The position numbers were made by a program, and so were the translations under genes. DNA of 64,000 nt from Mucilaginibacter rubeus (GTDB taxonomy: Bacteria; Bacteroidota; Bacteroidia; Sphingobacteriales; Sphingobacteriaceae): the NCBI RefSeq assembly GCF_014643835.1, contig NZ_BMKD01000006.1:124001-188000 (forward strand). The letters run 5' to 3'. The notes below the pieces were generated by a model that made no database searches, was not told the DNA's origin, and saw nothing but the letters and a program-made list of their open reading frames with translations. This document shows, one piece after another, positions 29,033-52,797 of the stretch. Numbering within the stretch: position 1 is the stretch's first letter; each line of letters starts with the position of its first letter.

Positions 29033-29034
29033 TA

Positions 29035-30568: not shown

Positions 30569-30748
30569 ATGAAAATATTTCAGCAAATGCTTCAGCTAAG
30601 GGAGCGCAAAAGAAGCTCCCATCTTGTGACAGCCGAAGTAATGAATACACTGCCTCAAATACAAGAGTTAAAAACCGGTATTTGCCAGGTATTTATTCAG
30701 CATACTTCGGCATCATTAACCATTAATGAAAATGCCGACCCAACCGTT
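30569..30748 (+). pseudogene. yjbQ: N-terminal half of YjbQ (UPF0047), truncated
   Basis: The first 60 residues match the YjbQ family well: MKIFQQMLQLRERKRSSHLV, then CQVFIQHTSASLTINENADP at 39-58 and TV. The normal protein continues for about 80 more residues, with EGxDDMPAH and QGIYLCEHR motifs. Here the frame turns into unrelated sequence (ILCRLKLYGRC) and stops at 30784. The matching C-terminal 23 residues are found at 52305-52376 on the other strand. YjbQ proteins have weak thiamine-phosphate synthase activity in the literature. This copy is non-functional. Confidence 0.85.
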
Positions 30749-30770
30749 ATTTTATGCAGATTAAAATTAT

Positions 30771-30830
30771 ATGGCCGTTGTTGAAGCTGGTACCTATGTA
30801 CAGCTAAGACTTGGCTACAGGTTCAGATAG
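30771..30830 (+). pseudogene. probable C-terminal strand of an outer-membrane protein (remnant)
   Basis: In one frame this encodes MAVVEAGTYVQLRLGYRFR followed by a stop. VQLRLGYRF has the alternating pattern and terminal aromatic of a last beta-barrel strand. It directly follows the broken end of yjbQ and has an in-frame stop just upstream. I propose it is the missing end of the decayed barrel gene at 52.4-52.8 kb; the match is inferred from type, not sequence overlap. Confidence 0.45.
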
Positions 30831-30831
30831 C

Positions 30832-32001
30832 TTATTCAGAATAAACGCTGCCAACCCTGTCGCGCAGGTTATAGCCTGATGCCATCACCTCACCATAAGC
30901 GCCAGCGGTACGTACAGCTATCAGGTCGCCGCGGAATGACTCGGGCAGGCTCACATCCCTCTGAAAACAATCCGTGCTTTCACATATCGGCCCAACAACG
31001 TCATACTTTAAACTTTCGGACTTTCCGGCTTCCGAACTTTCCGACTTCCGGCTTAAATTCTCTATCTGGTGATAAGCCTGATAAAGCATCGGACGAATCA
31101 GCTCGGTCATGCCGGCGTCAAGGATCAGGAAGTTCTTTTTCTGCCCGTTTTTAACATACAATACACGCGATATAAGCGACGCACTTTGGGCTACCAGTGC
31201 ACGGCCAAGCTCAAAATGAACTTCTTGCCCCGGCTTAACGTTCAGGAAGTTTTTAAACACCTGGAAGTAGGCTTCAAAATCGGCTATGTTGTTATCCGGG
31301 CTGTAATAATCAACCCCGAGGCCACCGCCGGTATTAAGCACTTTTATCGGGAAGCCACGATCTTCAAACCAATCCTGCATTTCATTAATGCGGGTACACA
31401 GGTTTTTGTAAACTTCAAGGTCGGTAATTTGTGAACCAATATGGAAGTGGATACCTAAAAATTGCAGGTTATCACATTTGCGCAAAGCAGTGGCAACATC
31501 AGGTAATTGCCAGGTATTGATGCCGAACTTGTTTTCATCAAGTCCGGTGGTGATGAAATGGTGAGTATGTGCATCAACATTCGGGTTAATGCGGATAGCC
31601 ACGCCAGCTTTTTTGTTTTTTGCTTTAGCAAGGCCATCAATAATGAAAAGCTCCTGAATGGATTCGACATTGAAGCAGAAGATATCCGCATCAAGGGCCA
31701 GGTTTATTTCACGGTCTGATTTGCCTACACCTGCAAATACAACTTTGCTTTTATCAAAGCCATGATCAATAGCTGCCCGAACTTCATTACCGCTCACGCA
31801 ATCGGCGCCAAAGCCATAGGTTTGTATGGTGTCAATGACTTTTGGGTTAAAGTTGGCCTTCATGGCATAATGCACATGGAAACCATGCTTTGCAGATGCA
31901 TCGCGGCAGGCACTCAGGGTATTTTTAAGCACCTCGAGATCGTAGTAATAAAACGGAGTTTCTAAGCCGTTGAATTTATCTATAGTTTTACTTGTGAACA
32001 T
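30832..32001 (-). CDS. lysA: diaminopimelate decarboxylase LysA
   Basis: Last step of lysine synthesis: meso-diaminopimelate to lysine with PLP. 389 residues of the fold-III decarboxylase family. The PLP lysine is K48 in HYAMKANFNP. Also seen: GIHFHIGSQI, NTGGGLGVDYY, ELGRALVAQS, DAGMTELIRPMLY and the active-site CES in VGPICESTDCF, ending AGAYGEVMASGYN. Residues about 317-331 (SRKSESSEAGKSES) are an in-frame insertion made by a repetitive DNA element, not family sequence. lysC is upstream on the same strand, 126 bases away, making a lysC-lysA unit. Confidence 0.95.
   Translation of the reverse strand: MFTSKTIDKFNGLETPFYYYDLEVLKNTLSACRDASAKHGFHVHYAMKANFNPKVIDTIQTYGFGADCVSGNEVRAAIDHGFDKSKVVFAGVGKSDREINLALDADIFCFNVESIQELFIIDGLAKAKNKKAGVAIRINPNVDAHTHHFITTGLDENKFGINTWQLPDVATALRKCDNLQFLGIHFHIGSQITDLEVYKNLCTRINEMQDWFEDRGFPIKVLNTGGGLGVDYYSPDNNIADFEAYFQVFKNFLNVKPGQEVHFELGRALVAQSASLISRVLYVKNGQKKNFLILDAGMTELIRPMLYQAYHQIENLSRKSESSEAGKSESLKYDVVGPICESTDCFQRDVSLPESFRGDLIAVRTAGAYGEVMASGYNLRDRVGSVYSE
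31010..31052. repeat. short repeat inside lysA
   Basis: Tandem-like units of ACTTTCCGG/ACTTCCGG type (aactttcgga ctttccggct). The same kind of unit lies in the spacer at 36577-36612. It is in frame, adding about 15 residues to LysA between the IENL and YDVVGPICES blocks. Confidence 0.6.
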
Positions 32002-32042
32002 GGGTAATATTTCATCAAATCATGCTGAACTATTGCATATCA

Positions 32043-32069
32043 GGGATTGCTTCGTTCCTCGCGATGACG
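32043..32069. repeat. intergenic repeat, GATTGCTTCGTTCCTCGC type
   Basis: ggattgcttcgttcctcgc followed by gatgacg is a widely scattered intergenic motif in many bacterial genomes, including Bacteroidota. It lies between lysA and lysC; no second copy was seen in this window. Confidence 0.4.
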
Positions 32070-32095
32070 TTTTAAATTAAAAATTTCAAATAAGG

Positions 32096-33438: not shown

Positions 33439-33682
33439 TTTTATGTTGCTGTTAACCGTATATGATCGGTGTTCCTGAACATCATTTTACTGATATTCAA
33501 GCACCAATATTTGAGGCGCTAAAAATAGTGTTTTAAAACGCTTTAATGTAATGTGATTGGAATTTAAATTTGACGGGCATATCGCTTCTGAGTTTTGAAA
33601 TTCGTTGGGCTTTGATTGAGAAATGACATCTCCGTTCCGTCATTCGGTATAAAATGTCGGGATCGTAATAAACCCAATTTTA

Positions 33683-34813
33683 TCACTTTCCCCTCAACAT
33701 ATCAAGCGAGTAAAAACTCTCGCGCCAGTAAATGCCGCCCTGTACAACTGTTATTATTGATGCTTTTAAAAAATGCCAGGCCAGAAATAGCCCCGAAAAG
33801 GGTATCATGAATGCATACCACCACTTATTTGGTGGCACTATCATCATATAAATAATATGGGATACCAGCATAATAGCAGCCATGATGCGGATACCTGCAG
33901 TGCCGAAAATAAACATCAACGGCATGGGCAGAGCTACTGTTAATAACATATTCAGCACGTTAATAATGGCTTGCACAAGATTATAGTTGGCAACAGCAAA
34001 TGAGTTTTTCTGCACACCGCGCCCAAGCTCACCAAGATTTTTATACCATTCCAGGCAAACGTAACCCTTACCGGCTAAAACATCCTGCCGTAAACCTTCT
34101 TTTTTTATCAATTGACCAAGTTGAAGATCATCATCCGGGCGCAGTTTTATGCGTACATGCGTGCCAATTTTTTCATAAGCTGTACGTCTGACCAAATTGA
34201 AAGCCCCTATGCCCGACGATGCTTTTGATTTCGGTTTTTTTGCCTCCCATGGTTTCATGGCAATCATGAGCATAATGCTTAATGTGGCAAATACACTGTT
34301 TAAAATTGACGACCGGGAGATCAACTCAGGTAACATGGTTAAATGATCAACCTCGTGCTTAACGGCATAACCGACAGCCTTGTTAATAGCATCAGGATGA
34401 AAAACGATATCAGCATCGGCAAAAAGCATCCATTCCTCAGTACTGCTAAGGTAACCCTGGTAAAGTGCGTTGTTTTTACCAAGCCATCCGTCGGGTAAAG
34501 TGTCTATCGTAGTTACCTGAAGCTTTGGATAGTGTAAGCTAAAATCTTTCAGGATGTCGGTGGTACGGTCGGTTGAGCGGTCGTTCACTACAATAAGGCG
34601 ATGGTTAGGATAATTGATATGGCAAACGCTTTGCAAGGCTTTTTCAAGGTCTTCCTCCTCGTTTCGCACAGCTATAATGATGGCAAGGGGTGGGGGATTA
34701 TCCATCACAGGTTGTCGGCTTACCTGTTTAATTTGTTTAAAGCCGATAAGCAGATAAAAGTTAAGCGCTAAAGTGGATACAAACAGTATTACGCTGTACC
34801 AGAATAATATCAT
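33683..34813 (-). CDS. membrane glycosyltransferase family 2
   Basis: 376 residues. One N-terminal membrane segment (ILFWYSVILFVSTLALNFYL) anchors a GT-A domain: PLAIIIAVRNEEEDLEKAL, VVNDRSTDRT, DXD-type motif LFADADIVFHP and the acceptor region RPDDDLQLGQLIKKEG. Three or four C-terminal helices (LLTVALPMPLMFIFG, MIPFSGLFLAWHFL) follow. This is the layout of CrtQ/HpnB-like transferases that glycosylate lipids or carotenoids. Acceptor unknown. Confidence 0.9.
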   Translation of the reverse strand: MILFWYSVILFVSTLALNFYLLIGFKQIKQVSRQPVMDNPPPLAIIIAVRNEEEDLEKALQSVCHINYPNHRLIVVNDRSTDRTTDILKDFSLHYPKLQVTTIDTLPDGWLGKNNALYQGYLSSTEEWMLFADADIVFHPDAINKAVGYAVKHEVDHLTMLPELISRSSILNSVFATLSIMLMIAMKPWEAKKPKSKASSGIGAFNLVRRTAYEKIGTHVRIKLRPDDDLQLGQLIKKEGLRQDVLAGKGYVCLEWYKNLGELGRGVQKNSFAVANYNLVQAIINVLNMLLTVALPMPLMFIFGTAGIRIMAAIMLVSHIIYMMIVPPNKWWYAFMIPFSGLFLAWHFLKASIITVVQGGIYWRESFYSLDMLRGK

Positions 34814-34898
34814 GATAAATAGGTTTGGATAAAGGTGGGCAAAATCAGGAAATAATCACAACAAAAAATGGCATATTGCATTACCAATTTTAACACCT

Positions 34899-35882
34899 AT
34901 GAAAAACATCAGCCGCAAAAAATTTATTGCTTCGGCCGCAATAGCTGCTGCCGGTTTACCTTTTGGTTTAAGTGCTTTGGCTAAGCAATCACCCTTAAAT
35001 ACTGACGTTGCCACAGGTAACCCCTCTGCGGGTGAAAAAATAAAAGTGAGCATATTTTCCAAACATATGCACTGGCTTAATTATGCCGATATGGCCGCTT
35101 TAACGGTACAGCTTGGTTTTGACGGAATTGACCTTACTGTAAGGCCCGATGGCCACGTGCTGCCCGAACGTGTTGCCGATGACCTGCCTAAAGCGGTTGA
35201 AGCTATTGAAAAAGCCGGGCTCAAGGTTTATACCATAGTAACCAATATTAAAACTGCTGATGAAAAATACGCCGAACCGATCCTGAAAACAGCATCGGCA
35301 TTGGGCATTAAATATTATCGTACCGCCTGGTTTAATTATGATAAGGCTACCAGTGTACCGGCCAATATCAGGGCTATCAATAAGCAACTGGCCGGTCTTG
35401 CCCAGCTCAACAAAAGGTATGGCATGCACGGCGGCTATCAAAACCACTCCGGCGACTTGTTTGGAGCATCACAATGGGATTTATGGCTGAGCCTTGAAGG
35501 GCTTGATCCTAATAACATCGGTTGTCAGTACGATGTAAGGCATGCAACAACTGAAGGTGCCGATACCTGGCCTGTTACACTTGACCTGTTGAAGGCTTAT
35601 TCCAAAACAATCAATGTAAAAGATTTTTACTGGGAGAAAAAGGGCGACAAATGGCGGGTGAAAAGTGTGCCATTAGGCGAGGGTATGGTTGATTATAAAA
35701 AATACTTCAGCCTGCTAAAACAATACAATATCAATGGCCCCATGAGCCTGCACTGCGAATATCCCTTAGGCGGGGCAGAGGATGGTAAACGTGAGCTGAC
35801 TATTAGTAAGGATGAGTTTTCGGCCGCTTTAAAAAAGGATTTGACCAGATTGCGTGGATGGCTGGCAGAGTATGACCTGTAG
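34899..35882 (+). CDS. exported sugar phosphate isomerase/epimerase (TIM barrel)
   Basis: 327 residues with a Tat-like signal (ISRKKFIASAAIAAAGLPF; the second arginine is a lysine). The xylose-isomerase-like barrel shows LGFDGIDLTVRPDGHV, YTIVTNIKTAD, MHGGYQNHSGD, IGCQYDVRHATTEG, INVKDFYWEKKG and MSLHCEYPLGGAEDG. Like the gene at 27.6 kb it belongs to the exported TIM-barrel family typical of this group, but the two are only distantly alike. Monocistronic; divergent from the glycosyltransferase. Confidence 0.9.
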   Translation: MKNISRKKFIASAAIAAAGLPFGLSALAKQSPLNTDVATGNPSAGEKIKVSIFSKHMHWLNYADMAALTVQLGFDGIDLTVRPDGHVLPERVADDLPKAVEAIEKAGLKVYTIVTNIKTADEKYAEPILKTASALGIKYYRTAWFNYDKATSVPANIRAINKQLAGLAQLNKRYGMHGGYQNHSGDLFGASQWDLWLSLEGLDPNNIGCQYDVRHATTEGADTWPVTLDLLKAYSKTINVKDFYWEKKGDKWRVKSVPLGEGMVDYKKYFSLLKQYNINGPMSLHCEYPLGGAEDGKRELTISKDEFSAALKKDLTRLRGWLAEYDL

Positions 35883-36051
35883 GTCTCGTTCAACGCATTA
35901 CAGGTTTAAGTATCCGCGCTTCAACCTGTCATTTTTTTTACTCCCCTAAAACTTGTTTTATAACAAATTTGTTACTAAATTTAATAACAGCATGCCCGTC
36001 GCTTGATCTCCCTGATCGCCCCGGGTTGCTCATAACCAATTATTAAACTAA

Positions 36052-36058
36052 AAGGAGG
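36052..36058 (+). promoter_or_regulatory. strong Shine-Dalgarno of DoxX gene
   Basis: AAGGAGG five bases before the ATG at 36064, one of only three such sites I see in the window. Confidence 0.75.
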
Positions 36059-36063
36059 GCTTT

Positions 36064-36501
36064 ATGAATCTGGTTCATAAAATTGAACACTGGGGCGACA
36101 CTCATCACCCTAAAGTTTTGGATATTGTGCGTATTGTTCTTGGCGTATTTTTATTAGTGAAAGGCATAACTTTTATGGAAAATACATCATACCTGCGAGG
36201 TATTATTACCGATCAGGATGTTATTAACGTATCGCCAGATATGCTGATGATCCTGGTATACTATGTATCATTTGCCCACATGGTTGGTGGTATACTCATA
36301 GCCATGGGTATATTAACCCGTTTGGGCTGCATTATTCAGATCCCTATATTGGTGGGCGCAGTATTTTTAACAGGGATTTTCCAGGAACCTATCAATACCA
36401 TGTTATGGCCATCAATTACAGCTCTGGCTCTGCTTATACTATTTACCATTTTAGGCTCCGGTCCATGGTCATTGGATAAAGTACTGTCGTTTAAGGGATA
36501 A
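36064..36501 (+). CDS. DoxX family membrane protein
   Basis: 145 residues with four membrane helices: LDIVRIVLGVFLLVKGITF, MILVYYVSFAHMVGGILIAM, CIIQIPILVGAVFLTGIF and SITALALLILFTILGSG. The GGILIAMGILTRLG stretch is typical of DoxX. Cytoplasmic N-terminus with a His-rich start (HKIEHWGDTHHPK). Function of the family is largely unknown, with links to thiosulfate oxidation or redox stress. A strong ribosome-binding site suggests high expression. Confidence 0.85.
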   Translation: MNLVHKIEHWGDTHHPKVLDIVRIVLGVFLLVKGITFMENTSYLRGIITDQDVINVSPDMLMILVYYVSFAHMVGGILIAMGILTRLGCIIQIPILVGAVFLTGIFQEPINTMLWPSITALALLILFTILGSGPWSLDKVLSFKG

Positions 36502-36576
36502 TGGAGAGATAAGAAATCAAGAGCCAGGAAAGGAATTTCTTTTAACTAACACCAAAACTGTAAAACTCCCAATTTG

Positions 36577-36612
36577 GGACTTAAAACTTCGAACTCAAAA
36601 CTTCCGACTTCC
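36577..36612. repeat. spacer repeat, ACTTCGAACTC/ACTTCCGACTTCC type
   Basis: Degenerate units aaaacttcgaactc, aaaacttccgacttcc in the 110-base spacer between DoxX and the UBP-finger gene. Resembles the element inserted in lysA. Confidence 0.5.
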
Positions 36613-36614
36613 AA

Positions 36615-36881
36615 TTAATATCCTTTAACGGCTTCATCTACATAACACCATAGCCAGCGCTCACCTGGTTCGGCAGATATAACTACGGGATGGCCTGTAG
36701 CGTGGAAATGCTTAGTCATATGCGTATTGGGTGAACTATCGCAGCAAAGCGTAACGCCGCAGGTTTGGCAGGTACGCAGGTGCAGCCATGAACCGTGATG
36801 TTTTATGCATTCCTCACAAACGTAGCCTTTGGGCTCGGTTATGCTTTCAACAGCTTCGATGTGGGCACAGGTTTCTTCCAT
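36615..36881 (-). CDS. UBP-type zinc-finger protein
   Basis: 88 residues forming one ZnF-UBP domain: C5 and H7 (CAHIE), GYVCEECIKHHGSWLHLRTC, TCGVTLCCDSS, HMTKHFHATGHPVVIS and ERWLWCYVDEAV. These give the Cys/His set that binds zinc. In eukaryotes the fold binds ubiquitin C-termini; bacterial copies have no known ligand. It is the last gene of a three-gene unit with the receiver/reductase and CNBD kinase genes, 23 bases from the former. Confidence 0.9.
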   Translation of the reverse strand: MEETCAHIEAVESITEPKGYVCEECIKHHGSWLHLRTCQTCGVTLCCDSSPNTHMTKHFHATGHPVVISAEPGERWLWCYVDEAVKGY

Positions 36882-36904
36882 AGGTGTATGTAGTGATTAA
36901 TAAT

Positions 36905-38566
36905 TTAAACTTCGGCAAGATATTTATGTACGAAACTTATAGCCATTGAGCCTTCGCCTACGGCAGATGCCACGCGGTTCATAGCCCCGGCACGCACATC
37001 GCCGGCTGCAAATATACCCGGGCAACTGGTTTCTAACAGGAACGGATCACGTTTAAGCTTCCAAACTTTGTTAAAGTTCTCGTAACTGCGCAACTCCCGG
37101 CCGGTTTCAATAAAGTCTTTATTATTTTTAATGATGTCCAGCTTTATCCAGTCGGTATACGGCTTGGCACCAATAAATATATATAATGCGTTAGCAGTTT
37201 TAACTTCGCTTTCCTTGGTTTTGCAGTTTTGTATCGTAAGCTTTTCAAGGCAGTTAGTGCCTTCGGCCTCAATTACCTCGGTATTTGGCATAACCTTTAT
37301 ATTGGGCGTATCGGCAATCTGGTTGATCAGGTAGGCAGACATGGTTGCCGTCAAATCATCCCTGCGGATAATAATATGCACGTTTTTTGCAAATTTGGAA
37401 AGGTACATAGCTGCCTGTCCGGCCGAGTTACCTCCGCCAATTACAAACACCTCTTTACCTGTACATGCCGAAGCTTCGGTAGTAGCCGCGCCATAGTAAA
37501 TGCCGGCTCCGGTAAAGTTATCAACGCCTTTAACTTCCAGTTTACGGTAATCAACACCGGTAGTAATTACTACTGTACGGCTGATGATCTCGGGCCCGTC
37601 ATCCAAAATAATGGTTTTGTAGCCATCTTTTTGTTTGATATCGCTTACAGATTGGGGTGATAAAAATTCGGCGCCTAAACGCATAGCCTGACTTATGGCG
37701 CGACGGGTAAGATCGGCGCCGCTTAAACCTGCCGGGAAACCCAGATAATTTTCAATACGGGAGCTGGTACCGGCCTGTCCGCCCGGTGCTTTACGCTCAA
37801 TCAATAAAGTTTTTAAGCCTTCTGATGAACCATATACGGCAGCAGCCAACCCTGCAGGGCCGGCACCAATGATCACCACGTCATAAACATCAGTGAGCTG
37901 GGTTGGATTTTTACCCATTTTATCGGCAATGTCCCTGATGGTTGGTTTTGTTAAACAACTGCCATCCTCAAATATCACCATCGGCAAATCATCGGTTGTG
38001 CGGTTATTGATGGTAAGCAAACTGGCCGAATCGATATTTTTTTCAATATCAAACCAACGGTAAGGGATCAGGTTACCGGCTAAAAAATCTTTTATAACGT
38101 GCGATTGAGGCGAAAACTGGTAGCCAACGAGCTTCATACCCACAAATTCGGGTATGTAGTGGCTATGCCAGTCATCGAGCAAGTCATTTATTACAGGATA
38201 AAGTTTTTCCTCTGGCGGGTTCCAGGGCTTCATCAGGTAATAATCAAGCTGTACATCGTTAATGGCTTTAATGGCGGCATCAGTATCGGAGTAGGCGGTA
38301 AGCAGTACCCGTTTAGCCTCGGGGAATACTTTTTTTGCCTTCTCCAAAAATTTAACGCCTTCCATTTCGGGCATGCGCTGGTCGCACAAAAATAAGGCGA
38401 CCACCTCCGAACTGTTTTTCAGTTCGATAAGGGTATCATATGCCTCATTTGCCGATGTTGTGCTTAGTATTTTATATTCTTTGCCATACTGCGACTTTAA
38501 ATCGCGGCTTATTGACCGCAGTACCTGCGGATCATCATCTATGGAAAATATTATCGGACGGCTCAT
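36905..38566 (-). CDS. response-regulator receiver fused to thioredoxin-reductase-like flavoprotein
   Basis: 553 residues. Receiver domain 1-125: acidic DDD at 10-12, phospho-acceptor D62 (CDQRMPEMEG), K113 (LMKPW). A glutaredoxin-like linker occupies about 145-220 (GYQFSPQSHVIKDFLAG, NLIPYRWFDIEK) with no CxxC. A two-dinucleotide flavoprotein runs from 228: FAD motif GAGPAG at 234-239, NAD(P)H motif GGGNSA at 377-382, FAD motif GIFAAGDVR at 517-525. Where thioredoxin reductase has CxxC the sequence reads GAATTEASACTGK, with a single cysteine. So it is phosphorylation-controlled and probably reduces something other than thioredoxin by dithiol exchange. The kinase upstream is the likely phosphodonor. 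Confidence 0.93.
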   Translation of the reverse strand: MSRPIIFSIDDDPQVLRSISRDLKSQYGKEYKILSTTSANEAYDTLIELKNSSEVVALFLCDQRMPEMEGVKFLEKAKKVFPEAKRVLLTAYSDTDAAIKAINDVQLDYYLMKPWNPPEEKLYPVINDLLDDWHSHYIPEFVGMKLVGYQFSPQSHVIKDFLAGNLIPYRWFDIEKNIDSASLLTINNRTTDDLPMVIFEDGSCLTKPTIRDIADKMGKNPTQLTDVYDVVIIGAGPAGLAAAVYGSSEGLKTLLIERKAPGGQAGTSSRIENYLGFPAGLSGADLTRRAISQAMRLGAEFLSPQSVSDIKQKDGYKTIILDDGPEIISRTVVITTGVDYRKLEVKGVDNFTGAGIYYGAATTEASACTGKEVFVIGGGNSAGQAAMYLSKFAKNVHIIIRRDDLTATMSAYLINQIADTPNIKVMPNTEVIEAEGTNCLEKLTIQNCKTKESEVKTANALYIFIGAKPYTDWIKLDIIKNNKDFIETGRELRSYENFNKVWKLKRDPFLLETSCPGIFAAGDVRAGAMNRVASAVGEGSMAISFVHKYLAEV

Positions 38567-38619
38567 AGGGTAAATATGCAGGCAAATTAACTAATATTTT
38601 TGGTAAAATCAGTTTTTTG

Positions 38620-40038
38620 CTAACCATTTATCGGGAAGCAAACTATAAACTCGGTATGCCCGGGTCTTGATTTTACCTTTATTGAACCGCGGTGCTGCTT
38701 CACAATACGCTGCACCACTTCAAGGCCCATACCAGTGCCTTTGCCCATTTCTTTTGTGGTAAAGAACGGATCGTAGATCTGGCTGATATTATCTTCGGGT
38801 ATACCGGGCCCATCATCAATGATTCTTACTTCAACAAAGTCGTTATCTTTTTTTGTGCGGATGGTAAGTGTGCCTCTCTCATTTATTTCCATGGCATCAA
38901 GGGCATTATCAACCAGGTTGGTCCAAACCTGGTTAAGTTCGCCGATAAGCGCTTTCACTTCGGGCAGGGTTTCATCAAACTCTTCAATTACGGTAATATT
39001 TTCCTTCCTGATCTTGTAACCCAACATGGTAATCGTGTTACGGATCCCTACGTGGATATCGGCATACTGCTTATCCTGCGCGCGATCCATATGGGTAAAT
39101 GTTTTAACGGAACTTACCAATTCGGCAATACGTCGTGCAGACTCCTGGATATCTTCAATCATCTTTTCGCCCATAAGCTTGGCACTAAGCCAGCCCATAA
39201 TGATTGGTACCGCATGTTCTGGAATGTGCGATTTTAGTGCCTCCAGATTTTCGGTAGTAAAGCTAAAGTCAACAAAGCTTTCGGCTATATCATAGGCATC
39301 CTCAACACCGTTATCTTCCAGCCATTCTGATATTTCGTCTTCAAGTTGGGTGCGCTGTTTTAGTGTAAGGCGGGTATAGCATTCCTTTTTATTCAGGATC
39401 CTGAAAAGTTCGTCTGTCAAACCATCAACCTGCTCATCACTCGCCCTTATGGCAAACATATTTTTTAGGTGGGCAGGCACCATACGCAGGTGTTTTCTTA
39501 ATGACAGCGAGTCGCGCACAATGGCCGATGCCGGGTTATTAAGCTCATGCGCTAAACCGGCAGATAGCTTACCTAAAGCCATCATTTTATCATTTTGCTG
39601 CTGCATGGCCGTAAAATCGCGTACGCGGGTAGTCATGATATGTACCAGCGCCTGCGTAAGCTCAAAATGGTTCCGAATCATCTCCATGATTTCGGCTGTA
39701 GGGTAACTCAACACCGTCAGTTCGCCAACAGCCTGGGCATAGCCTTTGGCTATGAGACCGCGGGAATAGGGCATATAACCCGTGATACTTCCTTTTTCAA
39801 CCATGGTATAGTCGCGACGCGAACCCTGCTGCATCATAAAGAAGCGCATGTTGCCTTCTATTATAAAATGTGGGCCTGTAAGATCCTGCCCCGGCTCCAT
39901 TAGGTATTCACCATCTTCAAATGTTAAGATCTCACTTTTATCAATCAGCCATTGCAGCTGATCGTCGGGTATATTGGCCAAAGCTTCAAAAGCTTTTAAG
40001 TCTGATACGCTTACCTGTAGTTCACTTACCTTTTGCAT
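38620..40038 (-). CDS. cyclic-nucleotide-binding-domain histidine kinase
   Basis: 472 residues, no membrane segment. A cNMP-binding-like domain occupies about 15-135 (LTFEDGEYLMEPGQDLTGPH, FIIEGNMRFFMMQQ, AVGELTVLSYPTAEI). The DHp helix carries phospho-histidine H164 in LSAGLAHELNNP. HATPase motifs are VWTNLVDNALDAM (N box), IIDDGPGIPED (G1) and GKGTGMGLEVVQRIV (G2). Soluble sensor kinase, first gene of the unit that continues with the receiver/reductase fusion and the UBP finger. Its ligand is unknown. Confidence 0.93.
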   Translation of the reverse strand: MQKVSELQVSVSDLKAFEALANIPDDQLQWLIDKSEILTFEDGEYLMEPGQDLTGPHFIIEGNMRFFMMQQGSRRDYTMVEKGSITGYMPYSRGLIAKGYAQAVGELTVLSYPTAEIMEMIRNHFELTQALVHIMTTRVRDFTAMQQQNDKMMALGKLSAGLAHELNNPASAIVRDSLSLRKHLRMVPAHLKNMFAIRASDEQVDGLTDELFRILNKKECYTRLTLKQRTQLEDEISEWLEDNGVEDAYDIAESFVDFSFTTENLEALKSHIPEHAVPIIMGWLSAKLMGEKMIEDIQESARRIAELVSSVKTFTHMDRAQDKQYADIHVGIRNTITMLGYKIRKENITVIEEFDETLPEVKALIGELNQVWTNLVDNALDAMEINERGTLTIRTKKDNDFVEVRIIDDGPGIPEDNISQIYDPFFTTKEMGKGTGMGLEVVQRIVKQHRGSIKVKSRPGHTEFIVCFPING

Positions 40039-40147
40039 AATTTAAAAGTAGGGAATATTATTTAATGATGTAAAAATGAGGCAAAAAATTGCAATTAGGT
40101 GAACCTGTGCAGGATGGATTTTGTTTGTCTGTACCAGGATTTTGTCT

Positions 40148-40184
40148 GAACCGGGATTTAGGGGATTATTGGATTCCCTGGATT
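40148..40184. repeat. left arm of an imperfect inverted repeat
   Basis: Reads gaaccgggatttaggggatt and continues to tggatt. The inverted partner is at 40305-40341, with about 26 of 37 positions shared. It looks like the degenerate GGATTT-rich spacer repeats of Sphingobacteriaceae. Confidence 0.55.
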
Positions 40185-40234
40185 CGTGTCCTCATGAAAC
40201 GCTTTGTTAATATGGAAAGTTGATGGCTTTGAAG

Positions 40235-40256
40235 GCGATCGTGGAGACACGATCGC
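40235..40256. repeat. perfect hairpin inside the repeat-bounded element
   Basis: GCGATCGTG-GAGA-CACGATCGC: a 9-base GC-rich stem with a GAGA tetraloop. No T run, so not a terminator. It may be a REP-type palindrome. Confidence 0.65.
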
Positions 40257-40304
40257 AGGGGCAGAATATCGAATGGCTCGGTTAATCTTCAGGCAGCATT
40301 CAAA

Positions 40305-40341
40305 AATCCAGTAATCAGGAAAATCCTATAAATCCGGGTTC
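40305..40341. repeat. right arm of an imperfect inverted repeat
   Basis: Inverted relative of 40148-40184 (reverse complement reads gaacccggatttataggatt and continues to tggatt). It runs into the LytTR regulator stop codon at 40340. Confidence 0.55.
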
Positions 40342-41083
40342 AATTCCATTTGCTCAAAAATACCCCGAAGGCTTCTTTATACTGATCCCCAACGGTAATG
40401 TTCACTTTACCTATCTGTAAAGCGTTGCGGGTAATGGAGTTGATTTTATTGAGCGATACAATGAATGAACGATGTACACGCATAAAACGTTTGGATGGCA
40501 GTTTTTCTTCCAAAGCTTTTAAACTGGTGAGGGAAAGCAATGGTTTTTCCTTATCCTGAAGATAGATTTTTACATAATCTTTCAAACCTTCAATGTACAA
40601 GATGTCATTAAGAGCGATCCTTACTAACTGGTATTCTATCTTTAAAAACAAGTACTCTTCCTCTTCGGGTTCAGCGGCAATTACGGTTGCAGGGCTGTTC
40701 GAGCGGTTCACCAGTTCAAAATAATTCAGGGCTTTGTTTGAAGCATGCAAAAATTCTTCATAGTTAAAGGGTTTGAGCAGGTAATCGAGAGCATCAACCC
40801 GGTAGCCTTCAATAGCAAACTGGTTGTAGGCGGTGGTAAAAATAATGCGGGGTTTAGTTGCTCCGCGGCTGTCAAGCACCCGGGCCAGCTCCATGCCATT
40901 AAGGTTAGGCATTTGGATGTCCAAAAAAATAAGATCAACCTTTTGATCCTGCAAGCCGACAAGCGCCTCTACGGCACTGCTATAACGGCCAATCAGTTTC
41001 AGGAAGGGGGTTTGCTCGATAAAAGCACAAACCAGGCCCAGCGCAAGCGGCTCATCATCAATCGCTATGCAGTTAATTATCAT
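40340..41083 (-). CDS. LytTR-family response regulator
   Basis: 247 residues. Receiver domain 1-120 with the phospho-acceptor D55 (LIFLDIQMPN) and KPF (LLKPFNYEEF). The LytTR DNA-binding domain (about 145-247) has LNDILYIEGLKDYVKIYLQD, LKALEEKLPSKRFMRVHRSF and IVSLNKINSI. Its start overlaps the stop of the kinase gene by 4 bases, so they form one coupled pair. The divergent TonB-type barrel gene is a plausible target. Confidence 0.95.
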   Translation of the reverse strand: MIINCIAIDDEPLALGLVCAFIEQTPFLKLIGRYSSAVEALVGLQDQKVDLIFLDIQMPNLNGMELARVLDSRGATKPRIIFTTAYNQFAIEGYRVDALDYLLKPFNYEEFLHASNKALNYFELVNRSNSPATVIAAEPEEEEYLFLKIEYQLVRIALNDILYIEGLKDYVKIYLQDKEKPLLSLTSLKALEEKLPSKRFMRVHRSFIVSLNKINSITRNALQIGKVNITVGDQYKEAFGVFLSKWN

Positions 41084-42150: not shown

Positions 42151-42434
42151 TTAGGGGATTTACGCTACGGTGCACGGCAAATAAATTTACAGATATAATT
42201 CAGCAATATTACAAATCAATAAGACTATAAGACAATTATAATCGCCCGGGAGGCAAAAATCACCGATGAACGCTTTGATCTGATCTTTAAAGACTTCTAT
42301 CAACCTTTCGTAGGATAACAGTCAGTGTTTATAGGCAAAAAGCTGTATCCCGTCTATACATAAACAACGCCCGTCTATTCCCTTTTTTTCACTAAAAATA
42401 ATGCTATTGTTTTGGGGCTGTTAATCAGCATAAA

Positions 42435-45284
42435 ATGAAAATCCTATACTCCTTGGCAGTAATTATTGCCTTAGCGTTTATCAAACCGTTTAACGCAAAA
42501 GCCGACCCTGGCCGTACGGTTAAAGGTGTCGTAAAAGACTCTACCGGTTACGTGGTTGCGGGTACGAGCGTAAAAATGCTTACCGGTACCGACAGCACTA
42601 CCGTTATTACGGGTGCCGATGGTACCTTTACATTTAACAATGTGACAGTAAGCCAGTTTAGTTTAGTTTTTAGCTCGATAGGTTATGAACCACTCAGGCG
42701 CAGGTTTGTGTTGGCTAATGATAATAAGCCGGCTAATTTGCCGCCGGTTATCCTGAAAATAGAAACTACGATGTTAAAAACCGTAGTTATTGCGGATGTG
42801 AACCCGGTAAAGCTTAAGGAAGATACCATTGAATTTAACGCCGATGCTTACAAAGTACGCGATAATGCCCCTGTTGAAGATGTGATTAAAAAACTGCCTG
42901 GTATGGATGTTGATAAAGATGGCAATATTACCGCCCAGGGCAAAAGTGTAACCAAGGTGCGTGTTAATGGAAAGGATTTTTTTGGAGGCGACGTTAAAAC
43001 AGCTACAAAAAACCTGCCTGCCGATATCGTACAAAATATCCAGATCATAGATGATTATGGCGATCAGGCAAATCTTACCGGTGTAAAAATCGGCGAACCG
43101 GATAAGGTACTGAACATAACTATTAAGCAAAATAAAAACTATGGTTACTTTGGGCAGGCCAGCATAGGTGGCGGGCGGGATGCTATTCCCGGTGTCTCAA
43201 GCGATAAGGAGAGCAACAGGCATGTGGCTTCGGCCAATGTGTTTAGCTTTAATGGCAACAGACAGCTGGCTTTTTTGGGTAACCTTAACAACACCAATAC
43301 CAATCTGTTTAGTTTTGGAGGTGGTGGTCCAAGAGGTGGCGGACCGGGTGGCCCTCCGGGATCAAACAGCAGCTCATCAAACGGGATCACTACAGCACGT
43401 TCGTTCGGGTTCAATTATCGCGATAGCTGGGGCAAAAAAATTACCGCTTATGGCAGTTACAGTTTTGCCGATAATTCGGTGAACACCATCAGCAGCACTA
43501 TTCAAAATAATCTTTCGTCAACCAATCCCAGTACCAATACGCAAACCAATAACCAGCAAGACGAAAAGCTGAACCACCGGATTAATTTCAACATTGAGTA
43601 TAAACCCGATACCGTAAACTATATAAAGATTACCCCAACATATGCTTACGCCAGCACCAATACTACATCCGACGCAACCAGTTTACTGCTCAGAAATTCG
43701 GAAACGGTATCAAATTATAGCCTCGCAAACCTCAGTAAATCAACCGAGCCCAATTATGGTGTTAATGTGTTGCTTAACCACAGGTTTAACAGTCACGGGC
43801 GCAACTTCAGTGTAAATGTTGGGGCAGGCAGCTATACCATTAACAAATATCAAAACCCGGTTTACACTTATATTGACGGGGCCCGCAACGCACCTTTAAA
43901 CCAGTTCATCAATACTGATAGCCGTACCGATAGTGTGGGGACTACGGTATCATACATGGAACCTATCAGCAAAAAAGGATACCTGGAGCTTAACTACGCT
44001 TACCATTACTCCTACACCACTGCCGACAGGGCCACCGATACCCTGGCCGATGATGGAAATATCAACCGATACGATTTGTTAAGCAATAACTATAATTCGA
44101 CCTTTGTTACCAACAGGTTCGGGCTTAACTATCGTTTTATCGACAAAAAATACAATTATACCCTGGGCCTGGTAGCGCAACCTACGCTATTAAAAGGATC
44201 GTCGATAGTTGATGGCACACCATTTACTACTAATAACAATACGTTTAATTGGGCGCCTACTGCAAGGTTCATTTATAACTTTTCGCGCAGTCAGTCACTT
44301 AGTTTAAACTATAATGGCAGCAGCAACCAGCCTACTTATACCGAGTTGCAGCCGGTTACCGATTTTAGTAACGCATCATACCCGGTACAAGGTAACCCCG
44401 ATCTGAAACCGGAGTTCAACAACACGCTGTCGTTAAAATACAATAAATTCAATTTTGAAAGCGGGAACGTGTTTTTCAGTAACCTGTCGTTCATTAAAAC
44501 AGATAATAAGATAGTAGCCAACACCATTACCTACCCCAGAAATTATGCACCAAACAGTAAACTTGCGGGAAGTATCTTAACCCAATATTTAAATGCCGAT
44601 GGCTATTATTCGGCCCAGGGGTTTTACGTGTTCGCCAAGCCATGGCAAAAAAGAAAATATAATTTATTCATGATCGGTAACATTTCGTACAATAACAACG
44701 TCTCATATATTAGTAACGTTGACTCTGCTACCTATAACATGACAACCGAAAAGAATATAGCCAAAAATTTGGTATTATCTCAAGGCGCGCGCTTTAGGGT
44801 AAGCATTACCGACGTTATTGATGCCGAAGCAAGCACTACTTACAGCGTTAACACCTCAAGCAATTCTATCAAACAGGCAAATGTTAACAGTAACTTCCAA
44901 ACGCTTAATCTTGGCCTTAATGGCAAAAGCTATTTTAAAGACTGGACCCTGAGCTATGATTATTCAAAAATGATCTACTATGGTTATACGGGCGCTACCA
45001 ATCCTAATATATTGAATACCTATGTTGAGCGTCGCTTTTTGAAAGGCAATGCCGGTACGTTACGCTTTTCGGTGATGGATGTGTTTAATGAAAATACCGG
45101 GTATACTACCACTCAGAACGGCAGCTATATCACTCAAACCAACAGTAATCGTTTGGGGCGTTACTACTTGTTAACCTTTACGCTTAAGCTACAGAAATTT
45201 GCCGGCAAAAGGCCAACCATGGAGCGTGGCGGACCGGGTGCTCCACCTCCGGGCGGCGGCCCCGGCGGACCGCCGCCATTTTAA
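42435..45284 (+). CDS. TonB-dependent outer-membrane beta-barrel protein
   Basis: 949 residues with a signal peptide (MKILYSLAVIIALAFIKPF, to about 23). A CarboxypepD_reg-like domain (RTVKGVVKDSTGYVVAGTS) and a plug (DAYKVRDNAPVEDVIKKLPG, GKSVTKVRVNGKDFFGGD) precede a large barrel of outer_membrane beta-barrel type (SLNYNGSSNQPTYTELQPV, GNPDLKPEFNNTLSLKYN). A Gly/Pro-rich loop (FGGGGPRGGGPGGPPG) lies in the barrel region and the protein ends in a Pro/Gly-rich tail after the last strand (TFTLKLQKFAG). No SusD partner follows. It is divergent from the LytS/LytTR pair, likely its regulator. Confidence 0.92.
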   Translation: MKILYSLAVIIALAFIKPFNAKADPGRTVKGVVKDSTGYVVAGTSVKMLTGTDSTTVITGADGTFTFNNVTVSQFSLVFSSIGYEPLRRRFVLANDNKPANLPPVILKIETTMLKTVVIADVNPVKLKEDTIEFNADAYKVRDNAPVEDVIKKLPGMDVDKDGNITAQGKSVTKVRVNGKDFFGGDVKTATKNLPADIVQNIQIIDDYGDQANLTGVKIGEPDKVLNITIKQNKNYGYFGQASIGGGRDAIPGVSSDKESNRHVASANVFSFNGNRQLAFLGNLNNTNTNLFSFGGGGPRGGGPGGPPGSNSSSSNGITTARSFGFNYRDSWGKKITAYGSYSFADNSVNTISSTIQNNLSSTNPSTNTQTNNQQDEKLNHRINFNIEYKPDTVNYIKITPTYAYASTNTTSDATSLLLRNSETVSNYSLANLSKSTEPNYGVNVLLNHRFNSHGRNFSVNVGAGSYTINKYQNPVYTYIDGARNAPLNQFINTDSRTDSVGTTVSYMEPISKKGYLELNYAYHYSYTTADRATDTLADDGNINRYDLLSNNYNSTFVTNRFGLNYRFIDKKYNYTLGLVAQPTLLKGSSIVDGTPFTTNNNTFNWAPTARFIYNFSRSQSLSLNYNGSSNQPTYTELQPVTDFSNASYPVQGNPDLKPEFNNTLSLKYNKFNFESGNVFFSNLSFIKTDNKIVANTITYPRNYAPNSKLAGSILTQYLNADGYYSAQGFYVFAKPWQKRKYNLFMIGNISYNNNVSYISNVDSATYNMTTEKNIAKNLVLSQGARFRVSITDVIDAEASTTYSVNTSSNSIKQANVNSNFQTLNLGLNGKSYFKDWTLSYDYSKMIYYGYTGATNPNILNTYVERRFLKGNAGTLRFSVMDVFNENTGYTTTQNGSYITQTNSNRLGRYYLLTFTLKLQKFAGKRPTMERGGPGAPPPGGGPGGPPPF

Positions 45285-45730
45285 AGAACAGCAAAGGTTC
45301 ATAAAATATTAAAAACCTTCCCATCCCTGAGAACGATGGTGAGTTCAGATCAAAAAGCATGATGATCTGAGATTTAGTTGATGTTATCATCAGATAACTG
45401 CAGGGCGTTCCGGGGTGAGATACGGGACGCCCCTTTTTTATTAATTATACGTTAATGCACTTATTTAGGTTTCGATTTTTGGCTTAAACCAATTTATTAT
45501 TCAATCAATCTGAATATCAACGCAGTAGTATGAGATATTATTCTCATTTTTTTTATTATTTAATTAAACTACACAAACCAAAGATTAAACTTTTATGTGT
45601 TAATTTACCTGGACCGTTTTTGCGGGGGTACTTCGTAGCCCGAATATTTGTTAATTTAGCCCTTTATAAAAAATAAGCTTTTTTTACAGTTTTTAATTAC
45701 ATTTAACCCATTATTTGTAAATAAAACTGA
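45285..45730. other. 446-base intergenic region
   Basis: The terminator of the TonB-type barrel gene occupies 45403-45440; the rest, up to the AraC gene, is A/T-rich and has no open frame. It must contain the araC-type promoter. No clear operator was seen. Confidence 0.5.
45403..45440 (+). terminator. intrinsic terminator after TonB-type barrel gene
   Basis: Stem GGGCGTTCC / GGGACGCCC (9 base pairs with one G-T) with a 12-base loop, then a C and a T run (TTTTTT). Confidence 0.8.
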
Positions 45731-46606
45731 ATGAAGCCGCTTTTACTTAAAGTTTCTGCCGATCCTGCGCATTCCTTTAGCGTAAGGCATGATGTATCAC
45801 CGGATATCAATAACCGCTGGCACTGCCATCCCGAATTGGAGCTGATTTATTTCATCAAAGGTGGCGGAACGCAATTTATAGGCGATAGTATTAAGCAGTT
45901 TGAAGACGGCGATATGGTGTTGGTTGGATCAAACCTGCCTCATTACTGGCGCTTTGACGACATGTACTTTAATAATGGCAACGAACAGGTGCCGGTTGAT
46001 ACCATCGTGGTACATTTTTGCGAAAACTTTTGGGGCGATCAGTTTCTTCAGCTTCCAGAAAACAAGCTAATAAAAGTATTGCTTGAACGTTCAAAACGTG
46101 GCTTGCAAATAACAGGTGAAATAAAAAAGCAGGTGGCCTCTATTTTAGCCACTATGCTTAATACTGATGGTGCCGAAAGGATCATCATGCTGCTCAAAGC
46201 ATTGAATACCATAGCGGGCAGTTCACCGCTTAATTATCTAACTTCTATAGGTTTTAAGTACGATCATAATGAATCGGAAAGCGACAGGCTCAATAATATT
46301 TATGAATACTCGGTACGTAACTTCCGCAAAAAGATTTACCTGGAAGAAATTGCCGATATAGCCGGTGTGAGCGCGAACTCGTTTTGCCGGTACTTTAAAT
46401 CAAAAACCCGCAAAACCTACTCACAGTTTGTGATCGAAATAAAGGTAGGCTATGCCTGCAAACTCCTCATTGAAAATAAGCTCAACATCAAGCAGCTTTG
46501 TTACGACAGCGGCTTCAATAATTTCTCCACTTTTCACAAGCATTTTAAACAGGTAACAGGTAAAAGCCCACTCATGTACCAAAAGGAGTTTACGAAGAAA
46601 ACATAA
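45731..46606 (+). CDS. AraC-family transcriptional regulator with cupin sensor
   Basis: 291 residues. The N-terminal cupin sensor (RWHCHPELELIYFIKGGGTQ, GDSIKQFEDGDMVLVG, LPHYWRF) is followed by two helix-turn-helix motifs in the C-terminal 100 residues (YLEEIADIAGVSANSFCRYF and KQLCYDSGFNNFSTFHKHFK), ending GKSPLMYQKEF. It probably responds to a sugar-like ligand and controls nearby carbohydrate genes (inference). Confidence 0.94.
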   Translation: MKPLLLKVSADPAHSFSVRHDVSPDINNRWHCHPELELIYFIKGGGTQFIGDSIKQFEDGDMVLVGSNLPHYWRFDDMYFNNGNEQVPVDTIVVHFCENFWGDQFLQLPENKLIKVLLERSKRGLQITGEIKKQVASILATMLNTDGAERIIMLLKALNTIAGSSPLNYLTSIGFKYDHNESESDRLNNIYEYSVRNFRKKIYLEEIADIAGVSANSFCRYFKSKTRKTYSQFVIEIKVGYACKLLIENKLNIKQLCYDSGFNNFSTFHKHFKQVTGKSPLMYQKEFTKKT

Positions 46607-46821
46607 TTTTTTGCTATCCCCGAGTGGTTTTAATTGTATTGAAAATAACTCGGGATGGGCTGACCTTTAGAAAAAAGGCAGTTCATGACAGGGCAGCAGC
46701 CCCTTCAATATCCTTTTCCATAAGGCTGAAAATAATTCTATTATCCTATCCTGGGAATAATTTTCTAAATTCACGGTGATATATCTCTCGTTTTGCGCAC
46801 TTACTATTAAACGCACTGATC

Positions 46822-48389: not shown

Positions 48390-49262
48390 TCACTTATTTA
48401 ACGCATCTACCTTATCAAAAAACTCATTTTGCAATTTGATGGTACTGGTATCGGCCTTAATCGCTTTAAGCGCTTGTATAAAACTGGCTATTTCATGCTC
48501 TGCTATAAATTTGCCAAATTCAGGTGTAGCTTTAGCCCCTTCACCTGCATAGTGGTTAGGATAAGCGGCATACCACCATATAGGTGTATAAATATTAGCC
48601 AGGTTTAAACGGCGCTGATTATCGCCTGATTGTGATGCTGCCCGGTCCATCTTCATCAGATCTGGGCGATAGTAAAGCATCGACGCGGTTTCACTTTCGC
48701 CGGCATGCTGATCACCTTCAATAGCTGATTTATGCATTTTGCGGTATTGATCTGTGTATTCCTTATCTGCACTGTGCGGGTTATAAAAATATACTGCATA
48801 GCTGTGACGTTTGTTGAGCAGAGATTGCATAAAGAACTGGATAAACTCGGGATTGCCGCCATGGCCGTTCAGTATTACTATTTTATCAAACCCGTTTCGC
48901 GCAATTTCATCGCAGGTAGCTTCCAGTAAATCCCAGATCACTTTGCTTGGCAGCGCAAACGTTCCGGGCTGATGGCGGGCCTCATTGATCTGCCCATAAA
49001 AATAATCAGGAAATACAACTGCATATTCCGACTTAACAGCGTGGGCAGCCCACTCACGCACATGGATCAGATCGGTGCCTAAAGGGGAGTGAGGGCCGTG
49101 TTTTTCCAGGATCCCAATGGGCAGGATGCAGGTTTTCGACGATTTTTCGAGTGCAGCAGGAAAATCTGAGGCAACAAGCTCGTCCCAGCGCGCAGGTATT
49201 TGCTGGGCAAAGGAATAAGCAGGAAGCAGCAGCGCTACAAACAGTAATAAGTAAGTTTTCAT
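48390..49262 (-). CDS. exported creatininase-family amidohydrolase
   Basis: 290 residues with a signal peptide (MKTYLLLFVALLLPAYSFAQ). Creatininase-fold residues are seen in LPIGILEKHGPHSPLGTDL (metal-binding E and H, D of TDL), NGHGGNPEFIQFF and GDQHAGESETASMLY. The family hydrolyses cyclic or linear amides such as creatinine or aminopyrimidine derivatives. In this periplasmic subgroup the substrate is unknown. Confidence 0.88.
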   Translation of the reverse strand: MKTYLLLFVALLLPAYSFAQQIPARWDELVASDFPAALEKSSKTCILPIGILEKHGPHSPLGTDLIHVREWAAHAVKSEYAVVFPDYFYGQINEARHQPGTFALPSKVIWDLLEATCDEIARNGFDKIVILNGHGGNPEFIQFFMQSLLNKRHSYAVYFYNPHSADKEYTDQYRKMHKSAIEGDQHAGESETASMLYYRPDLMKMDRAASQSGDNQRRLNLANIYTPIWWYAAYPNHYAGEGAKATPEFGKFIAEHEIASFIQALKAIKADTSTIKLQNEFFDKVDALNK

Positions 49263-51237: not shown

Positions 51238-51434
51238 TAATTAATATTTGCAAAACGGACTAACGGTTCATGATATAGCCTAAAGCTATTATACGGATAA
51301 AAAGTGGTATGGTTGAAGAATGTTAAATAAAATAGGCTCAGGTACAGTTAGTTTTGACTGTTATTCAAAAATATTAAACCTTCTGCAGGTAATATAGGCA
51401 TAAAGGTGAAATAAAAAAACGATTCAGAAAAATG

Positions 51435-52136
51435 TTATAACGAATCGGGATTAGGAATAAAGTTCATAAATGCCTGGAACTTGGCATAATAGTTTTGCAT
51501 ATTTAACTGGTAATAATAAGCACCGCGTTTTGAGCCTGCTTTATCCTTATCGGCCAGTTTAATGAGTAAACCGGTTGCCAGCACTCTTTTACTAAAATTA
51601 CGTTTATCAATAGTGGTATTAAACACGCTTTCGTAAAGAGTTTGCAATTGCGGGATAGTAAACTTGGTGGGCAAAAGCTCAAACAGGATAGGGTGCATAG
51701 CTGCTTTGTAGCGGATGCGTTTGCGGGCCTGCTCAACCATTTCCTGCTGGTCAAATATCAATTTAGGGGCGCGTTTAAGCTGAAACCATTCGGCATGGTA
51801 ATCATCACTAATCTGGGCTTCATATTTATGGATGTCAACCAGTGCAAAGTATGCTACAGATACTGTACGCTCAATAGGGTCACGCTGGGGTTGCCCAAAA
51901 GTATATAATTGTTCAAGGTACACGCCCTCCAAACCGGTTAATTGCTTTAAAATGCGGTTGGCACTTTGATCAAGACTTTCATCTGGCTGAACAAAGCCAC
52001 CCATCAGGCTCCAGTTTCCCTTTTCGGGTTGAAAGCCTCTTTTTATCAATAGGATCTTTAAAACTTCGCCATCAAAGCCAAAAATGATACAATCAACAGC
52101 TAATAATAACCTTGTTTGCTTGGAGTACTTGAGCAT
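51435..52136 (-). CDS. NrtR-like Nudix-domain transcriptional regulator
   Basis: 233 residues. The Nudix domain (1-145; LLAVDCIIFGFDGEVLKILL, NWSLMGGFVQPDESLDQSAN) is followed by a winged-helix domain (about 150-225; LPTKFTIPQLQTLYESVFNT, DKRNFSKRVLATGLLIKLAD). The Nudix box has G47 and E53 but at the REUxEE core only R61 remains, with I62, Q65 and L66 in place of the glutamates. So it should bind a sugar or nucleotide ligand without hydrolysing it, as in the NrtR/AraR-type repressors known in Bacteroidetes (established). The regulated pathway is not shown here. Confidence 0.9.
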   Translation of the reverse strand: MLKYSKQTRLLLAVDCIIFGFDGEVLKILLIKRGFQPEKGNWSLMGGFVQPDESLDQSANRILKQLTGLEGVYLEQLYTFGQPQRDPIERTVSVAYFALVDIHKYEAQISDDYHAEWFQLKRAPKLIFDQQEMVEQARKRIRYKAAMHPILFELLPTKFTIPQLQTLYESVFNTTIDKRNFSKRVLATGLLIKLADKDKAGSKRGAYYYQLNMQNYYAKFQAFMNFIPNPDSL

Positions 52137-52304
52137 TTATAAACAGTAATAATTTTATGGTAAAAACAAATATAGAATAACATTCGATATAAGCTTGCAA
52201 ATTTGCTATGTTATACCTGTTAAAAACGCATTAATTTACAATTGTTAGTCAAATGTGTAAATTAATTGTGCTTTTTACAATAATAATTGACACTTATTCA
52301 TTAT

Positions 52305-52376
52305 TTATTCGCCCCATGCCGATATTACCAGCATGCGGTTGCCGCCGTGGTTACGATGCTCGCACAAATAAATTCC
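52305..52376 (-). pseudogene. yjbQ: C-terminal end of YjbQ (remnant)
   Basis: The minus-strand frame reads GIYLCEHRNHGGNRMLVISA-WGE and a stop, matching the C-terminal signature of YjbQ/UPF0047. It begins abruptly at about 52377, right after the truncated outer-membrane gene, and lacks everything upstream. Complementary to the N-terminal YjbQ half at 30569-30748. Confidence 0.82.
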
Positions 52377-52378
52377 CT

Positions 52379-52797
52379 CGCCGCTTCAAAATCGATAAAG
52401 CGAAAATCGATACGTCCGCTGCTCACAAAAAAGTTCCCGACAACCTCCCTCCTGCCGTTCCAAAGAACTTATTTTTAAAGTAGTTGGGATCTTGCGGCTC
52501 CAATTCGCTGTTATGATAATTACCTAATGTACCATAGCACCGTAAGCCGGGTTGAAATGATCAAATGCATGTGCGCGGCTAAAATTAAGCTGTCCACTAA
52601 CCAACTCGTCTGAGTAATTAGGGCTTTCATCAACTACTAACGCCCCCGAAATATAATTTGTCGATTTGACAGCATCGGCAGATACCGGTTTAGGCAGATA
52701 AGCAATATCGCTATGGTGCATGGCCGGCGCATAAATATGATCACTGCATGCACATACTGGACAGGAGCAAAAGCAGGCTGAATTTAAGTTTCATCAT
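52379..52797 (-). pseudogene. decayed outer-membrane lipoprotein/beta-barrel gene, 5' part
   Basis: It begins MMKLKFSLLLLLSS, then a frameshift in the signal peptide; the frame continues CACSDHIYAPAMHHSDIAYL, YISGALVVDESPN, QLNFSRAHAFDHFNPAYGA. A second shift follows (LGNYHNSELEPQDPNYFKNK, GTAGGRLSGTF) and a third (VSSGRIDFRFIDFEAA). It ends at 52379, where the YjbQ C-terminus starts. The pattern (lipobox cysteine region, then paired beta strands) is that of a Bacteroidota outer-membrane protein. At least three frame disruptions make it non-functional. Confidence 0.7.

Follow-up and report, generated by a model that had tools for sequence, protein, structure and literature searches.

Comparison of a 64,000-nucleotide stretch of Mucilaginibacter rubeus DNA (contig NZ_BMKD01000006.1, positions 124,001 to 188,000; hereafter the window) with related genomes indicates that the interval from about 30748 to 52380 is a derived, irreversible inversion whose breakpoints lie inside two genes: yjbQ, of the UPF0047 family, and a gene for a predicted outer-membrane barrel lipoprotein (hereafter the barrel gene). 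We put the probability that this interval was inverted, with reciprocal breakage of both genes, after the lineage of the window had split from M. gossypii at about 95%. The explanation as a whole also holds that both genes were destroyed and that at least the barrel remnants are decaying.

Results

An inverted interval relative to the nearest genomes

Relatives were collected by scanning with the LysA of the window and keeping the best 80 loci (71 labelled Mucilaginibacter and 9 only Bacteroidetes bacterium), among which the best match was M. gossypii (genome G001), with 98% protein identity. In a tree of lysA, lysC, nrtR, a histidine kinase gene, clpP and a sigma-factor-like gene (6,282 columns, nine taxa), the window was sister to M. 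gossypii (support 1.0; 95.3% nucleotide identity over the six genes), and genomes G117 and G122 came next. Positions 25908-62328 of the window aligned with a single M. gossypii contig as six pieces of 92-96% identity, with 25908-30747 forward, 30747-52382 reversed and 52380-62328 forward; gaps of 195 bp at 40.1-40.3 kb, in the reversed part, and of 92 bp at 52.8-52.9 kb, in the right forward part, were left unaligned. With such an alignment, chance resemblance can be set aside. G117 and G122 showed the same layout against the window, a reversed interval between forward flanks, except that G117 lacks ~1.2 kb around 33.6-34.8 kb and its right-flank match begins four bases later. The breakpoints fall on the same bases (within 4) against all three genomes, each of which carries an intact yjbQ at one end of the block and, at the other, an intact barrel gene encoding 254 amino acids (aa) and convergent with lysA. 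Because the window is sister to M. gossypii, with G117 and G122 next, the flip is derived on the window's own branch. The comparison thus yields the marks of a chromosomal inversion, namely a collinear block in the opposite orientation, unchanged flanks, reciprocal junctions and a derived state.

The ~21.6-kb inverted interval (30748-52380), which is collinear in reverse with all three genomes, holds 17 predicted genes, from lysA to nrtR, when open reading frames (ORFs) of at least 90 aa are counted. A first-pass annotation, made from the sequence of the window alone, had proposed an inversion of this interval with breakpoints in both genes and had suggested a comparison of gene order; that comparison bears the proposal out, as re-inverting the interval restores the arrangement of the three nearest genomes. 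Neither of the two outcomes that the annotation had set against its own proposal was seen: no relative shared the order of the window without an intact yjbQ, and 30771-30830 did not match a gene unrelated to the barrel gene. Among the more distant relatives, G002, G004, G005 and G006 carry both genes where re-inversion would put them, within the flanks compared and around a shorter interval, and G003 agrees on the yjbQ side, no barrel match having been obtained from it. yjbQ is single-copy and free of stop codons in each of G001-G006, and G001, G002, G004, G005 and G006 each have the barrel gene as an open 254-aa frame.

Reciprocal fragments of the two genes

Each gene is present in the window as two pieces on opposite strands. 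The N-terminal part of yjbQ (30569-30747, plus strand) is cut at the left breakpoint and lies in an ORF (30569-30784) that matches Pfam PF01894 (UPF0047/YjbQ; E 1.6e-10, profile positions 2-41 of 117). By tblastn, residues 1-60 of the intact M. gossypii YjbQ correspond to 30569-30748 on the plus strand and residues 117-140 to 52379-52308 on the minus strand; the latter match identifies the C-terminal end (52305-52379, the last 24 residues and the stop codon), which is 98.7% identical to G001 at the nucleotide level. A full-length, single-frame YjbQ domain (TIGR00149/PF01894) was sought in the window and was not found; there are two separate fragments, and the middle ~56 codons are gone. Of the 254-aa M. 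gossypii barrel protein, residues 16-142 correspond by tblastn to 52757-52379 on the minus strand, in three pieces in differing frames, within the N-terminal part of the gene (52381-52797), and residues 234-254 to 30765-30827 on the plus strand, at 100% identity, within the C-terminal end (30748-30830, the last ~28 codons and the stop codon). This end is 96.4% identical to the end of the M. gossypii barrel gene.

The order of the pieces at both loci agrees with the first-pass annotation, which had placed YjbQ residues 1-60 before the barrel end on the left and the barrel front before the YjbQ C-terminal end on the right. Two details have to be revised. Barrel-gene homology at the left locus begins at 30747/30748 and covers 30749-30770, a 1-bp deletion following shortly after, and the short stretch described there as separate is therefore itself barrel-gene sequence. 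The N-terminal half of the barrel gene, taken to be intact, carries three deletions and an early stop.

The junctions and the lost DNA

The left breakpoint lies at 30747/30748 and the right at 52380/52379, to within two or three bases. DNA had already been noted as missing from both genes; measured against G001, G117 and G122, with the same result for each, yjbQ has lost ~167 bp and the barrel gene ~256 bp, lengths that shift by a few bases depending on how overlaps are assigned. Because DNA was lost at both junctions, a flip cannot restore either gene. At the left joint one base (T) is common to both genes. At the right joint barrel sequence runs up to GCGGC and yjbQ resumes from AGGGAATTT, with one G between them that belongs to neither, which can be read either as a 3-bp overlap (GGC) with one added base or as a blunt joint where a single base was added or changed; neither joint thus has more than one base from outside the two genes. 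The lost pieces of yjbQ and of the barrel gene had no match beyond 20 bp in the window (best E 0.07).

When the left joint was searched against 149 genomes of the genus (362-base query, joint at 179/180), 141 matched one side or the other, and the matches listed all ended by base 181 or began at 179 or later. For the right joint (443/444), 65 of the 149 genomes gave a match, and the matches listed all ended by base 444 or began at 441 or later. A plasmid search with the left junction returned two Proteus records only, both on the yjbQ part. The breakpoints share no long homology: inverted words common to the two ancestral breakpoint regions reach 10 bp at most, against maxima of 9-15 bp in 180 random pairs from the same contig, and between the two joints of the window no inverted word longer than 9 bp was found within 300 bp. 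Inverted repeats inside each border region alone were absent on the left and consisted on the right of one overlapping palindrome (52188-52215), away from the joint. An element, a remnant of one or inverted repeats at both borders of the inversion were looked for and not found.

Decay of the remnants

Relative to G001, G117 and G122, the N-terminal part of the barrel gene carries an 8-bp and two 1-bp deletions, and its own frame reaches a stop codon after 'MCMQ'; with the deletion in the C-terminal end, the barrel remnants hold four insertions or deletions (indels) beyond the breakpoint loss. A window-specific change was defined as a site at which all three near relatives agree against the window. 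Nonsynonymous and synonymous changes of this kind numbered 11/5 in the barrel N-terminal fragment and 0/1 in the C-terminal one, and 5/4 and 1/0 (the joint base itself) in the corresponding yjbQ fragments, compared with a pooled 10/51 in the control genes (lysA 3/12, lysC 0/20, nrtR 0/7 and histidine kinase 7/12). For the barrel N-terminal fragment the Fisher p value was 0.0001, or 0.001 when the neighbouring HAD hydrolase gene was included among the controls. On the G001 branch the counts were 0/4 for the yjbQ N-terminal stretch and 2/3 for that of the barrel gene.

Poor sequence quality was rejected as the source of the frameshifts. Among the 33 M. gossypii ORFs of at least 90 aa in the region, 30 match the window in one unbroken stretch (pieces below 75% identity having been dropped), which makes general sequencing error an unlikely source of the breaks. 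One of the 30 matches only to residue 185 of 201, at a place where M. gossypii itself appears split: the window has a single 290-aa ORF at 48390-49262 (minus strand), where M. gossypii has two, of 201 and 96 aa. The three broken ORFs are yjbQ, the barrel gene and a gene that we take to be glyoxalase-like (29035-29450, minus strand), which is one 138-aa ORF in M. gossypii and is split by a frameshift in the window, ~1.1 kb to the left of the yjbQ fragment.

Neighbouring genes and the wider genus

Just inside the left border, lysA (30832-32001, minus strand) abuts the joined yjbQ-barrel fragments, whereas gene order in close relatives has it convergent with the intact barrel gene. Near the other border, a gene for an nrtR-type NUDIX regulator (51435-52136, minus strand; Pfam NrtR_WHD and NUDIX) is the one that lies just downstream of the intact yjbQ in close relatives, and outside the right breakpoint stands the HAD hydrolase gene (52922-53572, minus strand; Pfam HAD_2), which flanks the barrel gene in those genomes. 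Within the interval, a 13-kb block between lysC and the sigma-factor-like gene (~33540-46760, glycosyltransferase to AraC regulator) is shared with G001, G122 and mostly G117; it is unmatched in G002, G003, G004 and G006, in which its neighbours lie within ~0.4 kb of each other, and in G005, which has 2.2 kb of other sequence between them.

At 6 of the 80 lysA loci (L002-L006 and L008) yjbQ is upstream of lysC-lysA in the same orientation, and at 5 (L007, L009, L012, L013 and L015) it is on the far side of lysA in the opposite orientation; the other 69 gave no YjbQ match in the stretch examined, which was short in some. At none of the 11 loci with yjbQ in the flank does it adjoin the 3' end of lysA as in the window. 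Of the 39 loci that gave a HAD match, 5 (L018, L046, L048, L058 and L070) have the HAD gene flipped relative to lysA. These differences in the orientation of yjbQ and HAD indicate that the yjbQ-lysA region has been rearranged several times, at other breakpoints. In the detailed gene-order listing, which covers 27 of the 80 loci, L018 shows a break between the barrel gene and the block of HAD, near the right breakpoint of the window. Between the two sets of loci with yjbQ in the flank (L007, L009, L012, L013 and L015 against L002-L006 and L008), the group of genes formed by yjbQ and the kinase gene differs in its orientation relative to the lysC-lysA group, a rearrangement that is older and used different breakpoints.

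YjbQ and the barrel protein in relatives

A YjbQ match was obtained in 129 of the 149 genomes of the genus, one in each except for two overlapping pieces on one contig of G098. The 20 genomes with no match range from 2.5 to 6.3 Mb and are assemblies of unstated completeness, and yjbQ may therefore have been lost elsewhere too; the largest of them, G030 (6.3 Mb, completeness likewise unstated), could represent an independent loss. Thiamine precursors are described in one account, as far as its relevant passage goes, as being joined by ThiE or YjbQ (PMC5613172), and a section of another lists YjbQ as of unknown function (PMC7954711). One to three matches to the TMP-synthase/TenI-type family (PF02581) were found in each of the seven genomes searched, and this suggests that loss of YjbQ may be tolerated.

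The barrel gene lies downstream of lysA on the opposite strand, adjoining it or within ~4 kb, at 42 of the 80 loci, counted as open frames of 200-330 residues; four of the 42 frames share just 32-36% identity, and no ATG turned up where they begin. With the protein as query, neither Pfam nor NCBIfam yielded a family at the E 0.01 level. A structure model built from 34 of the 42 homologues (mean predicted local distance difference test score 84, predicted template-modelling (TM) score 0.77) has an N-terminal helix and ~10 long strands, a cysteine near the N-terminus is invariant in all 34, and the top Foldseek matches inspected were all outer-membrane proteins, with low TM-scores (~0.3-0.5 among the best 31). 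On these grounds the name barrel lipoprotein, first proposed from the sequence of the window, stands as a prediction, to which no family assignment can be added.

Discussion

The present layout would have arisen, after the lineage of the window had split from M. gossypii, from chromosome breaks inside yjbQ and inside the barrel gene, ~21.7 kb apart, with loss of the ~167 bp and ~256 bp at the two break sites and rejoining of the middle segment the other way round. As a result of the reversal, each junction would begin with the first part of one of the two genes and continue with the last part of its partner. The joining of broken ends agrees with joints that overlap by few bases or none, with the DNA missing from both sides and with the lack of shared repeats and of an element, and the junctions make end joining without homology, by Ku/LigD or similar, the most likely mechanism, one that we hold to be probable. 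Ku was found in all six relatives searched, and so was an ATP-dependent ligase, in each case with a frame of ~900 residues, the size of LigD. In the set of genomes surveyed by one paper, according to the part concerned, the Bacteroidetes with non-homologous end joining all carry the conventional kind (PMC7719229).

Several observations weigh against this account or against the decay of both genes. The two ancestral regions have a 12-bp direct word in common, the chance range being known only for inverted words. Indels are confined to the barrel remnants and none is found in those of yjbQ, and the barrel gene may therefore have been decaying before the flip. For the yjbQ N-terminal fragment the signal of relaxed constraint is weak (Fisher p 0.018, or 0.11 with HAD among the controls), and four of its nine changes fall in six adjacent bases (30614-30619, plus strand; RGF to RSS), all of them transitions, which may represent one event. 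The yjbQ C-terminal fragment has no window-specific change except the junction base, and the HAD neighbour, with 7 nonsynonymous and 3 synonymous changes on the window branch, weakens the contrast with the controls.

Other routes to the same layout were considered. Replication-based template switching at two places could have produced the inversion together with the deletions at a single stroke, no pair of free double-strand breaks being needed. It would fit the paired deletions and the short overlaps (1 bp and up to 3 bp), and the sequence offers no way to tell it from end joining; however, the joints hold one extra base at most and no copied-in segment, and we regard it as unlikely. Recombination between insertion sequences is a common route to inversions in bacteria, and copies in opposite orientation in yjbQ and in the barrel gene might have recombined and later been lost with flanking DNA, of which the two deletions could be the trace. 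That route would require two insertions and two imprecise losses; at most one base at either junction is foreign to the two genes, the inverted words shared by the borders within 300 bp do not exceed 9 bp, and G001, G117, G122, G005 and G006 have no insertion at the yjbQ and barrel sites; it appears rather improbable. Homologous recombination between inverted repeats was rejected, the longest inverted word being within the random range.

The chance that the layout is an assembly mis-join is very small. A mis-join would have to account for two reciprocal junctions of matching orientation inside two genes and for lost sequence that has no match beyond 20 bp in the window, although the borders hold no long repeat to mislead an assembler, the barrel remnants have decayed further and the many unbroken ORFs speak for good sequence quality. 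Programmed inversions are common in Bacteroidota, but a reversible phase switch is refuted here by the DNA lost at the junctions and retains practically no probability; the inverted words between the borders do not exceed 9 bp, and no match listed in the 149 genomes crosses either junction by more than a few bases. Our preferred explanation remains the end joining of one break in yjbQ and one in the barrel gene. More tentatively, the yjbQ-lysA neighbourhood might be inversion-prone in this genus, end joining having turned it around on at least two independent occasions, and the window would then be the most recent and most readable example, with both joints kept; this we consider doubtful.

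The event is ordinary in kind and unusually legible, since both partner genes, both joints and the lost DNA can be read against relatives at 90-95% identity, and the general picture is unchanged by it. A soil Bacteroidota lineage has lost in one rearrangement an outer-membrane gene and yjbQ, which elsewhere in the genus is almost always there in a single copy, and the window is a natural example with which to ask whether inversions of this sort are made by Ku/LigD in bacteria. In a literature search for such an event, limited to one paper collection, none of the papers listed names this locus.

Small intrachromosomal inversions with deletions at the breakpoints are known to arise by non-homologous (illegitimate) end joining, and the window is like them in its reversed collinear block, joints with little overlap or none, losses at both ends and reciprocally split genes. 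It does not differ from them in kind; as each breakpoint falls within a gene, the two partners can be identified from the scar itself. As regards the proteins, the intact M. gossypii homologue passes the NCBIfam model TIGR00149 for the 'secondary thiamine-phosphate synthase enzyme YjbQ' (149.2 bits, cut-off 67.75), whereas the window keeps only residues 1-60 and the last 24, on opposite strands and 21.6 kb apart. The barrel protein of the relatives resembles outer-membrane barrels (OmpW, FapF and autotransporter-barrel folds among the Foldseek matches) in its ~10 predicted strands, N-terminal helix and cysteine, and differs from them in its low TM-scores and lack of a family match; in the window its gene is broken.

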